Assembly (NCBI RefSeq): GCF_000215955.2
Contig: NZ_AFNV02000024.1
Span: 1 to 64,000, forward strand
DNA from: Salinisphaera shabanensis E1L3A
GTDB lineage: Bacteria > Pseudomonadota > Gammaproteobacteria > Nevskiales > Salinisphaeraceae
Length of the DNA: 64,000 nt
Direction: 5' to 3'
Positions 9,805-47,785 of the stretch are shown here, piece by piece. Below the pieces are notes generated by a model. It had not been told where the DNA came from and did no database searches. It saw only the letters and a list, made by a program, of their open reading frames with translations. Positions within the stretch are counted from its first letter, which is position 1; each line of letters starts with the position of its first letter. The position numbers and the translations under genes were made by a program.

Positions 9805-9902
9805 CGCCCTACACAGCGCTCGGGCTCGCCGGGCGCGCAATTCTTGGCCGGTGCTCGATGTGCCCCCGGCACAGCAGTCATCGCCCCCTTCGGAATTCGA
9901 TC

Positions 9903-10694
9903 ATGGCCCGTAAACGATTTGGACAACATTTTCTGCACGAGCGCGGCGTTATCGATCGTATCGTGAGCATGCTTGCGCCCGCCGCCGACGATGCGCTGGT
10001 CGAGATCGGCCCCGGCCAGGGCGCGCTGACCGAGCCCTTGCTCGAACGAGTAGATCGGCTGAGCGTGATCGAGATCGATCGCGATCTGATCGCCGAGCTC
10101 GAATCGCGTGCCGCACGCGATTCGCGGCTCGAGGTGATCGCCGGAGATGCACTGCGTATCGACTACGCGGCACTGGCTGAACGCCGCGGCCCGCTGCGGC
10201 TGGTTGGCAACCTGCCCTACAACATTTCGTCGCCGCTCTTGTTCGCCTTGCTGGGCAGCGCCGCGCCGATTATCGATATGCATTTCATGCTGCAGAAAGA
10301 AGTCGTCGATCGCATGACTGCCGAACCTGGCAGCCGCGACTACGGCCGCCTCACTGTATCCGTGGCGGCGCGCGCGCATGCACAGGCGTTGTTCGATGTC
10401 GCGCCGGGCGCGTTCAATCCGCCGCCCAAGGTGATGTCGTCGGTGGTGCGCGTTACGCCCCGCGCGCCGGATTTCGAGATCCACGACGGCCAACTCTTCG
10501 ACCAGCTGGTCACGGCCGCTTTCAGCCAGCGGCGCAAGACGCTACGCAACGCCCTCGGGCGCTTTCTCGACGCGCAGGCGATCGAGGCCTGCAATATCGA
10601 TCCCATGCTGCGACCCGAGCGCCTGGCGGCCGCCGATTTTGCACGTCTGGCCAATCGCGCCAGCAAGGAAAAGCGCGCTGGGTCCACGGATTGA
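9903..10694 (+). CDS. rsmA: 16S rRNA (adenine1518/1519-N6)-dimethyltransferase RsmA (KsgA)
   Basis: The 263-residue SAM-dependent methyltransferase dimethylates two adjacent adenines in the 3' hairpin of 16S rRNA, a late small-subunit check. Motifs are FGQHFL at the N terminus, the SAM loop EIGPGQGALT and the catalytic NLPYNISSPL. The start at 9903 gives MARKRFGQHFL; the in-frame ATG at 9858 would add 15 residues absent from the family. It ends 8 bases before the stop of the convergent EAL-like gene. Confidence 0.96.
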   Translation: MARKRFGQHFLHERGVIDRIVSMLAPAADDALVEIGPGQGALTEPLLERVDRLSVIEIDRDLIAELESRAARDSRLEVIAGDALRIDYAALAERRGPLRLVGNLPYNISSPLLFALLGSAAPIIDMHFMLQKEVVDRMTAEPGSRDYGRLTVSVAARAHAQALFDVAPGAFNPPPKVMSSVVRVTPRAPDFEIHDGQLFDQLVTAAFSQRRKTLRNALGRFLDAQAIEACNIDPMLRPERLAAADFARLANRASKEKRAGSTD

Positions 10695-10702
10695 GCCCGC
10701 TG

Positions 10703-12556
10703 CTAGATCGGATGCGTACTGCAACGCGTGAGTAGCCGCGCGAAAGCCCGCGGCGAGTACAGCGCCTTCTCATCGTCGCTGAACCAGAGCACGCGGTTGT
10801 GATTGATCAGACGCGCCAATGGTTCGGGATCGGCGACCGGGCCCAGCAGCACCGGGCACTTCAACTGTTCGATACGTGCGAACCACGCCTCGATATCGGG
10901 CCCGATTTGGGCCGCATCGATACAGGCGACATCGCAATCCGCCGGCACAGGCTTGTCATGATCGGCAAGCGTGAGCGCTCGCCGCACCGGCAGCGAACTG
11001 TGTGCGACGCGGCGCGAACGCGCGCTGATCAACCGTAGAATCAGATCGTTCGGATCCCGATCGGTACGCCGTAGCGCGTCACGCCAGACCGCCTCTGCAT
11101 CGGCGAATGCGAGCATCGCGCTCGGGATCGGCAACACGATGGGCACGGTATTGATTTCCAGCGTGCGCCAATTGCTGTGCAACAAAGAAAACCGCCGCGC
11201 GATCCATTGCGTGAACGCGCGCAGCGCGCCCTTCTGCTCGGCCAATCGGGTGAGCGTATCGGCGTCGACCAGCCGCGTTTCCGGCGTACGCCAGGCAAGC
11301 GCGGCACAGGCGCCGGCCAGGACTTCGCGATTCACATCGCGCCAGATCGGATAGAAACGTAAATCTAGCGTGGCATCGCCCAAGTGCGGCTCGGCGTCCA
11401 GTCGTGGCGCGTGCAGTTCCGCCTGGGCAGGCGTTACGACCGTACTCGCGCGCTCCGACGCCGTTGCCTGCGCATCGGGCATCGGCCGGGGCGAGCGTGC
11501 GGGCGCCTCTGGTTTCGGCGTAGTTTCCGGTGCAGTTCCGGGCGCCGCGGGCTCGTGCTGCGGGTTCAAGGCCTCACGCTGAGTGGGCTCTGGCTTTTGT
11601 GGCGCCGCAGTCGAAGGCTCGGCCTTTACTACGGCCGGCTCCGAGCTCGGCGTTGCTGGCTTTTGCTGGGAGGCTGGTGCAGACGCCGCAGGCGGCGTGC
11701 GCACTGCAGAGGGGGAAGCGGGCTGGGACTGGGATATCGACGCCGACGCGGGGCGATCCGGCGCGACCGCTTTTCCGGGCGGCGCGGATACTGACTCGCG
11801 CGCGGCGGCACTGCTGCGCACGGGGCGGATCGGCTCGAACTCGTCGCCACCGGCTTCCTTGGCCCGGCCTCGCGTGAAACGCGACAGTGGCGAACGCGGG
11901 CTGTCGGGCGCCTCTTGCGTCGCGGGCGATGGTCTGCGCACATGCGCCGATGCCACGGGCGCCTCGTTTCGCGACGATTCTTGACGTTGCGTCGCGCCGG
12001 CAACCAGAGCTCCGACCAGGCCAACGAGACCGGCCAGCAGCGTGGTCAGCCAGATGATCAGGCCGACCCCAGCGTGCCCGAACACCTTGAACCAGCCAAC
12101 ACCGAACTGTGCATGACCGACCACCGAGGTATTGCCGGGGCCGTCAAGCGTGCGAACTGTCTCTGCCGATTCCAGGCGATAGTCCCAACCGCGCAAGCTT
12201 CTCGCCGTGCCAGCGCCGAGAAAGCCGAAACGATTCGAAAATCGCCCCCGCGAAACGAGTGTTACGTGGTCGGCGTTACGCACGGTCACGTAGTTCAATC
12301 CCAGTTCTGGATCAGCCACCAACGACTGCGTTGCCTCGATCAATCTGTTGGGGACGCGGTCCTGGCGAATATGGCCAGCCGTCGCGGCCGTGATCGCGTC
12401 GCCGGCCTCAGCAAGCGCTTGCGTACGCGCAGCACTCACCAGCTGAATGGTTTTCAGCCCACCATAGCCAACCAGAACCAGACAGAGCGCCGCCAATATG
12501 AAGAGGGCGTAGCGGGGCGTTGTGCCGGCATCGTCACCTGCAGCAAACATATTCAC
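10703..12556 (-). CDS. Two-TM membrane protein with long Pro/Ala linker and degenerate EAL-like domain
   Basis: The 617-residue protein is not one I recognise by name. Visible parts are TM1 (about 16-38), a likely periplasmic region (40-160), TM2 (161-187), a low-complexity Pro/Ala/Ser/Glu linker (190-395) and a globular C-terminal domain (397-615). The last part follows the plan of an EAL phosphodiesterase: a FYPIW entry strand, AALAWRTP where EALLRWRHP is expected, then LEINTVP and a late SPRAFARLL. The catalytic Glu and other metal ligands seem to be lost (EAL reads AAL at 418-420). It might be an inactive c-di-GMP receptor of LapD type, or a structural relic. Start is GTG 12556 or ATG 12550. 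It splits rsmA from apaH. Confidence 0.6.
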   Translation of the reverse strand: MNMFAAGDDAGTTPRYALFILAALCLVLVGYGGLKTIQLVSAARTQALAEAGDAITAATAGHIRQDRVPNRLIEATQSLVADPELGLNYVTVRNADHVTLVSRGRFSNRFGFLGAGTARSLRGWDYRLESAETVRTLDGPGNTSVVGHAQFGVGWFKVFGHAGVGLIIWLTTLLAGLVGLVGALVAGATQRQESSRNEAPVASAHVRRPSPATQEAPDSPRSPLSRFTRGRAKEAGGDEFEPIRPVRSSAAARESVSAPPGKAVAPDRPASASISQSQPASPSAVRTPPAASAPASQQKPATPSSEPAVVKAEPSTAAPQKPEPTQREALNPQHEPAAPGTAPETTPKPEAPARSPRPMPDAQATASERASTVVTPAQAELHAPRLDAEPHLGDATLDLRFYPIWRDVNREVLAGACAALAWRTPETRLVDADTLTRLAEQKGALRAFTQWIARRFSLLHSNWRTLEINTVPIVLPIPSAMLAFADAEAVWRDALRRTDRDPNDLILRLISARSRRVAHSSLPVRRALTLADHDKPVPADCDVACIDAAQIGPDIEAWFARIEQLKCPVLLGPVADPEPLARLINHNRVLWFSDDEKALYSPRAFARLLTRCSTHPI

Positions 12557-13425: not shown

Positions 13426-14265
13426 TTGGCGACTTTCTGTATCGGCGACATCCACGGTGCCCGATCCACACTCGACCGACTGCTCGACCGCCTCCACACC
13501 ATCGATGACCAGTGTCGCCTCTGGTTCGTGGGTGACCTCGTCAATCGCGGACCGGACTCGCTCGGCGTCCTGCGCCGCGTTCGAGACCTCGGCGAGCGTG
13601 CAGTGACCGTTCTCGGTAATCATGACCTGAGTCTGTTGGCTCTCGCTCAGCGAGACGACGCAGCCGCCACGGCCAAGAAGGGCCTGCGCGAAATATTCGA
13701 AGCGCCAGACGGCGATACGCTACTCGAATGGCTACGTCATCGCCCGCTAATGCATCGCGATGAATTGCTGGGCTGGACCATGGTGCATGCCGGCATTCCG
13801 CCCCAATGGACGATAGCCGAAGCGCAGGCCCGAGCCCGGGAACTGGAATCCACCCTACGCGGGCCCGCGCATGCCGAATTTCTTGCCGGGCTATACGGCA
13901 ATACGCCGACGCACTGGAATCCGGAGCTTGTCGGGCTTGCACGCCTGCGTTATATCGCCAACGCGCTAACGCGCCAACGCTTCATCGCGCCGGACGGCGG
14001 CCTGGACATGGACTACAAGAAGACGCTCGCCGACGCGCCCTCAGGTCTCGTGCCCTGGTTTGCCTGGCCGGAACGCGCGGCCGCTAACGAGCGCATTGTG
14101 TTCGGGCACTGGTCTGCGCTCGAGCGTGTCGCCTGGCCAGAGGACCGGGTATGGGGCATCGATACCGGCGCCGCCTGGGGTGGCCAGCTAACCGCCTTGC
14201 AACTGGACGGCGCCGCGCCGCGCCTCGTTCAAGTCGAGGCGGGCGCGTCCGAAACAAGTCGCTAG
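13426..14265 (+). CDS. apaH: Symmetrical diadenosine tetraphosphatase ApaH
   Basis: The 279-residue metallophosphatase hydrolyses Ap4A to two ADP and can decap Np4-RNA. The phosphoesterase signatures are GDIHGARSTLDRLL at the N terminus, FVGDLVNRGPDSL and LGNHDLSLL, all with intact metal ligands. The start is a TTG at 13426 (MATFCIGDIHG), with GGTGA just upstream at short spacing. It is convergent with the DUF481 gene, and the two stop codons overlap by 4 bases. The usual partner apaG is absent. Confidence 0.95.
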   Translation: MATFCIGDIHGARSTLDRLLDRLHTIDDQCRLWFVGDLVNRGPDSLGVLRRVRDLGERAVTVLGNHDLSLLALAQRDDAAATAKKGLREIFEAPDGDTLLEWLRHRPLMHRDELLGWTMVHAGIPPQWTIAEAQARARELESTLRGPAHAEFLAGLYGNTPTHWNPELVGLARLRYIANALTRQRFIAPDGGLDMDYKKTLADAPSGLVPWFAWPERAAANERIVFGHWSALERVAWPEDRVWGIDTGAAWGGQLTALQLDGAAPRLVQVEAGASETSR

Positions 14266-47602: not shown

Positions 47603-47785
47603 TCAAATGGTGGAGGGAGGAGGATTATTCGCGCCTTCGGCGCTCACCCTACGGGCCGGTCGCGTCACGCGACCGTTCTCGGCCGCTCCGCGCCCTCGTC
47701 GAACCGCTCGGTTCAAACCCTCCTCGGTCCGGCCTTTCTAATTGCCGCGACCACCAGTCGTTGTTTACTACGTCAATATGTCAAA
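47603..47785 (-). repeat. tRNA-Tyr-linked 178-bp repeat unit (rtT-like)
   Basis: A 24-base sequence at 47781-47804, consisting of the last 19 bases of tRNA-Tyr including CCA plus the 5 bases after it, recurs exactly at 47603-47626. The offset is 178 bases. The unit between holds compact hairpins (GGTCGCG-TCA-CGCGACC at 47658-47674; GCGCC-TTC-GGCGC at 47631-47643). E. coli tyrT is followed by a 178-bp repeat, each unit carrying the 19-base 3' end of tRNA-Tyr, which produces rtT RNA. The match in both period and tRNA segment is striking. Confidence 0.7.

Follow-up and report, generated by a model that had tools for sequence, protein, structure and literature searches.

A degenerate EAL domain conserved apart from any detected GGDEF domain in a membrane protein encoded beside rsmA in Salinisphaera

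In the window (the whole stretch of 64,000 nucleotides of Salinisphaera shabanensis E1L3A that was analysed), the minus-strand coding sequence at 10703..12556 encodes a membrane protein with a degenerate EAL domain. By sequence comparison and structure prediction, this domain has an EAL-type fold, has lost its catalytic and c-di-GMP-contacting residues, is under purifying selection, and is related to the dead EAL domain of an order-wide family of PAS-GGDEF-EAL proteins; it is fairly likely that the remnant serves as a membrane-tethered protein-binding module rather than as a c-di-GMP sensor. The coding sequence comprises 617 codons from a GTG start at 12556, and an in-frame ATG at 12550, two codons downstream, is the likely start of a product of 615 amino acids. 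The preliminary description of the window omitted the strand, but it was right that the gene is real: there are nine further Salinisphaera orthologues, so that 10 of the 14 Salinisphaera genomes searched carry the gene, and it is under purifying selection.

The gene is convergent to rsmA (ksgA; 9858..10694, plus strand), which is its syntenic anchor, and divergent from apaH (13426..14265, plus strand). Of the insertion between rsmA and apaH that had been described, the adjacency to rsmA holds and is old in the order, but a fixed apaH neighbourhood does not hold, as the distance from the gene to apaH is approximately 1-3 kb in several species, approximately 9 kb in G004 and G008, and approximately 11-15 kb in several genera outside Salinisphaera. 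In two Salinisphaera genomes that do not have the gene, G001 (L101:4194-5810) and G013 (L102:3874-5472), a plus-strand hydrophobic protein of approximately 535 amino acids with the appearance of multiple transmembrane segments is encoded between rsmA and apaH; the one in G001 has no Pfam match.

Hydropathy and the full-length AlphaFold2 model agree on the layout that had been proposed, namely a transmembrane helix, a periplasmic domain, a second transmembrane helix, a long Pro/Ala-rich linker and a C-terminal domain (all coordinates that follow are on the minus strand). The N-terminal part and the C-terminal domain are predicted with confidence, and the linker has a pLDDT of approximately 30-40 over residues ~195-388. 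The first transmembrane helix (residues ~16-36; 12449..12511) and the second (residues ~158-187; 11996..12085) are each seen in hydropathy and as a helix in the model. Between them lies an alpha/beta domain that resembles a sensor (residues ~37-157; 12086..12448; helix-helix-b-b-helix-b-b), with a pLDDT mostly of 80-90 and with homology that is recognized at the level of profiles. This periplasmic domain has no Pfam match at E<=10, and the fold search with the full-length model is uninformative about it, as the chains listed all contain EAL domains. A search of 369 genomes of the class with the periplasmic-domain profile, in which sensitivity was limited by the few candidates scored per genome, returned three weak matches outside Salinisphaera (E 7e-6 to 9e-5), to proteins with the look of a chemoreceptor, of a histidine kinase and of a further sensor.

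The linker (residues ~197-390; 11387..11968), assigned from pLDDT and composition, occupies the place where relatives have PAS and GGDEF domains. Pro accounts for 19% of its approximately 195 residues, Ala for 20% and large hydrophobics for 10%, and its identity between the window and the orthologues is 24-40%. The absence of HAMP and GGDEF domains that had been noted is borne out, the EAL domain being the sole domain detected and a disordered linker being found instead. The suggestion that the linker could let the cytosolic domain reach machinery from afar was overstated, as approximately 195 disordered residues average roughly 10-15 nm by a polymer-scaling estimate. The orthologue alignment reveals one conserved motif within the linker, SR..RR......[DE]F[EA]PI (residues 221-243; 11828..11896), of which F[EA][PV]I is present in all nine full-length orthologues, mostly with SR..RR before it; shuffling gives p of 0.0002-0.005 for each, values that are flattering because the motif was picked after the alignment had been viewed.

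The C-terminal domain consists of the first half of an EAL barrel (residues ~391-507; 11036..11386), which by identity and omega (dN/dS) is better conserved than any other part of the protein, and a second half (residues ~508-617; 10706..11035), which by alignment and the AlphaFold2 model is shortened, with the region of the DDFG loop deleted, and is under weaker constraint. The Pfam EAL model (PF00563) matches residues 396-509 with E=7e-6 and 26 bits, below the curated threshold of 31.3, and the profile of the domain has no match at E<=1 among the sequences of solved structures. Alignment by hhalign to EAL domains of the same genome scores 96.3%. The proposal of a degenerate EAL-like domain, against which a predicted non-EAL fold would have counted, is upheld by structure: AlphaFold2, given an alignment of nine Salinisphaera orthologues from which ordinary EAL sequences were kept out, produced an EAL-type barrel (pLDDT 84, pTM 0.84), whose best PDB matches by Foldseek and VIA-align are EAL domains (3n3t, E 7e-9; 4rnf, Z 19.0 over 225 residues, rmsd 3.5), with LapD (3pjt, Z 16.3), FimX (3hv8, Z 16.1) and STM1697 (5hxg, Z 15.3) also among the matches.

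The ancestry of the protein is indicated by the same rsmA-convergent position in a sister genus, where G015 encodes a TM-periplasmic-TM-PAS-PAS-GGDEF-EAL protein with an intact GGDEF motif (86 bits) and an EAL domain that is nearly gone (19 bits). When 85 genomes of the order were scanned for proteins of this type and for rsmA and the positions were compared, a PAS-GGDEF-EAL gene convergent to rsmA was found in at least 17 genomes outside Salinisphaera including G015 (at least 16 besides it), with a spacing from rsmA of approximately 11 bp to 2.7 kb. Among 22 family members picked from the best matches, partly for nearness to rsmA (so that the share of them in synteny should not be taken as a frequency), every one retains [GA]GDEF but no longer has the Arg of ExLxR, and the Glu is missing from 21; their EAL domains score 18-133 bits, compared to 293 bits for an unrelated EAL domain in the same set. 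The N-terminal part of the Salinisphaera protein aligns with those of the family at 98.4-98.8% by hhalign (98.4%, E 5.8e-15, for f2), and the C-terminal part at 96.7-97.4% over 224 columns, compared to 142 columns with ordinary EAL domains. The f4 members (G019, G026) have an N-terminus without a clear relation to that of Salinisphaera, and G023 apparently does not have it. A P-[LI] C-terminus is common to many family members, Salinisphaera included.

Neither PAS nor GGDEF was detected in the Salinisphaera orthologues scanned, the disordered linker occupying their place. Most simply, these findings would mean that the ancestral protein was of the sensor-PAS-GGDEF-dead EAL type, that PAS and GGDEF were lost in Salinisphaera, and that in one sub-clade the protein eroded before the gene was lost; the direction of change, that is, loss in Salinisphaera, depends on parsimony and on a two-gene tree of modest support. 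On this reading, the EAL domain had degenerated before Salinisphaera lost the GGDEF domain. The [GA]GDEF motifs of the relatives are intact, from which cyclase activity does not follow. Dead EAL domains and cyclases with dead EAL domains are already known, and the new point is the ancestry by loss of GGDEF; within the limited open-access literature searched, neither the family nor a dead EAL domain retained after being bereft of its GGDEF domain is described. The family loci L148-L166, L033, L105 and L107, with intact [GA]GDEF and dead EAL, are apparently undescribed.

Within Salinisphaera, which is a clade with support of 82 in the tree of RsmA plus PdxA, the first half of the barrel is the part that selection has held most strongly. 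When the gene in the window is compared to those of the two nearest species, omega comes to approximately 0.03-0.05 for the first half and 0.09-0.36 for the second half of the barrel, 0.19-0.39 for the N-terminal part and approximately 0.5 for the linker; the first half remains at 0.03-0.17 in most pairs, all of these values being rough because dS approaches saturation in the majority of pairs. First-half identity is 96% to G003 and 91% to G008 (RsmA, 88% and 79%; PdxA, 87% and 82%), and across six lineages it is 68-96%, near or above that of RsmA and PdxA, so the strongly constrained first half implies that the dead barrel is functional in those lineages. In G005 and G007 the barrel is shortened and no longer detected by Pfam, and first-half identity is approximately 35-45%; beside these two in the tree, nested inside Salinisphaera, are G001 and G013, in which the gene is absent. 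The function is therefore dispensable in some lineages.

What the barrel does must be considered in light of what it has lost. Compared to ordinary EAL domains from its own genome, the ExLxR-W site has become CAALA-W (residues 417-422; 11291..11308), with the Glu and Arg gone in all orthologues; the replacement of the catalytic Glu had been recognized correctly, but the site had been read as AAL at 418-420, and the Glu aligns with C417, one residue earlier. Elsewhere, the N of NxS is Pro, the E of ExTE (ExxE) is Arg, the K of KxD is Cys, the E of AEG(xE) is Gly and the Q of QG is Ser, and the DDFG stretch is either missing or cannot be aligned. The sole letter kept among the catalytic, metal and c-di-GMP positions scored is the isolated D of KID (KxD), and the catalytic/metal residue set of active EAL phosphodiesterases is not present. 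A receptor like LapD or FimX, in which an inactive EAL domain binds c-di-GMP and relays the signal, would share with this protein its membrane location, periplasmic domain and inactive EAL domain; the fold matches include the EAL structures of both LapD and FimX (Z 15-16), and c-di-GMP enzymes are plentiful in the genome, where 40 GGDEF and 17 EAL matches exceed the cut-off. The residues argue against it. At the centre of the LapD site is R450, just after KVL (PMC3032553), and with CAALA in place of ExLxR the Arg that LapD keeps and uses at the ligand site is also lost, the position of this c-di-GMP-contacting residue being Ala in six of eight Salinisphaera rows, Val or Leu in G007 and G005, and never Arg. 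LapD also has a HAMP and a degenerate GGDEF domain, neither found here, and acts with LapG (PF06035), for which a search of ten Salinisphaera genomes gave no match in any of them. The receptor reading that had been put forward by analogy with LapD, with conservation of the ligand contacts as its check, is very unlikely because the contacts are essentially gone, bar the isolated Asp, and LapG is missing; as a candidate, it was rejected on these two grounds.

EAL folds that have neither c-di-GMP residues nor a GGDEF domain are found in YdiV (RflP) and STM1697, which work by protein binding; in YdiV, 8 of 10 conserved residues are gone, and the protein binds FlhD and not c-di-GMP (PMC3510510). 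The Salinisphaera protein could by analogy be an anti-FlhD4C2 factor whose dead EAL domain sequesters FlhD at the membrane, in keeping with the comparable residue loss of YdiV (PMC3510510), with the fold match to STM1697 (Z 15.3, from a complex with FlhD), with the existence of an FlhD-binding dead EAL domain in enterobacteria, and with the distribution of FlhD and FlhC, which 8 of 14 Salinisphaera genomes encode and the other relatives searched do not. This reading is very unlikely: the gene occurs without FlhDC in G008, G011 and G012, and in G001 FlhDC occurs without the gene; YdiV contacts FlhD chiefly by alpha8 (residues 176-192), a helix of the second half, and that half is poorly conserved here; and YdiV and STM1697 are soluble, with no transmembrane helix or linker, whereas the Salinisphaera protein is anchored by transmembrane helices. 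FlhD as the sole target was rejected because of the mismatch in distribution between the gene and FlhDC. The flhDC genes themselves (G000:C30:4718-5716 and in other Salinisphaera genomes) are patchy in the genus, which suggests acquisition and loss. That the protein is instead a decaying relic with a functionless EAL domain would be consistent with the succession of GGDEF loss, barrel shortening in G005 and G007, and absence of the gene from the sister clade of G001 and G013, but this reading is quite unlikely, as the reading frames of the orthologues are intact and the first half has low omega in most pairs and identity at the level of RsmA and PdxA; it fits at most the clade of G005, G007, G001 and G013. 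A scaffold for the envelope or division, with an EAL barrel recruited outside c-di-GMP signalling, is unlikely as well, if less so. ZipA consists of a transmembrane segment, a Pro-rich linker and a globular cytosolic domain, and the Salinisphaera protein has the same layout in outline, a short conserved linker motif and none of the c-di-GMP features, but its neighbours lptD-surA-pdxA-rsmA are on the opposite strand.

The preferred reading, a membrane-tethered protein-binding module, has its closest counterpart in DgcE of Escherichia coli, a MASE1-PAS3-GGDEF protein whose degenerate EAL domain retains essentially none of the c-di-GMP, metal and catalytic residues, has an inhibitory effect and works against the formation of oligomers (PMC6510439). 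An EAL domain of this sort acts by contacts inside its own protein or with other proteins. Both proteins are anchored in the membrane with a dead C-terminal EAL domain, and the architecture of DgcE matches that of the order-wide rsmA-convergent family; DgcE has MASE1, PAS and an active GGDEF domain, whereas the Salinisphaera protein has a disordered linker where PAS and GGDEF were lost. The ancestor would have been a membrane-bound sensor-PAS-PAS-GGDEF-EAL protein of DgcE-like architecture with its EAL domain already dead, and replacement of PAS and GGDEF by the Pro/Ala-rich linker would have produced a periplasmic sensor-like domain flexibly tethered to a ligand-blind EAL barrel. By analogy, the most likely role of the barrel, and chiefly of its first half, is to bind another protein while tethered to the inner membrane; it would capture in trans, near the membrane, a partner of the kind formerly contacted in cis. 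The candidate partner, by inheritance only, is plausibly a diguanylate cyclase or another PAS/GGDEF protein, and the F[EA][PV]I motif of the linker may be a second docking site. Signals would not pass easily along a flexible linker, so the periplasmic domain more likely sets the location or oligomeric state of the protein. It is possible, though doubtful, that a dead EAL domain freed from GGDEF and tethered in this way has become a c-di-GMP-independent regulator in trans under constraint of housekeeping level, with the first half as a new binding surface and co-docking through F[EA][PV]I. CsrD, a membrane protein with a degenerate EAL domain that acts outside c-di-GMP turnover, is similar in these respects but has HAMP-like and degenerate GGDEF domains; the NCBIfam model of CsrD matches one relative weakly and does not match the Salinisphaera protein. 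Dead EAL domains joined to GGDEF are common, and Salinisphaera offers a natural domain dissection: with the GGDEF domain gone and the dead EAL domain conserved like RsmA, a stand-alone role of a dead EAL domain can be tested without a cyclase in cis.

At the locus of the EAL-like gene no regulatory RNA or tRNA was found, nothing is conserved between the gene and apaH except the start of apaH, and a scan for promoters and terminators performed no better than on shuffled sequences. The orthologue of G006 (UBA6602; L042:2753-4875), which was excluded from the alignments, spans a stretch of N that makes it appear in two frames; this reflects a gap in the assembly rather than a broken gene. Elsewhere in the window, an Rfam match to RtT RNA (47608-47739, 52.5 bits) lies inside a minus-strand cluster of Tyr, Gly and Thr tRNAs.
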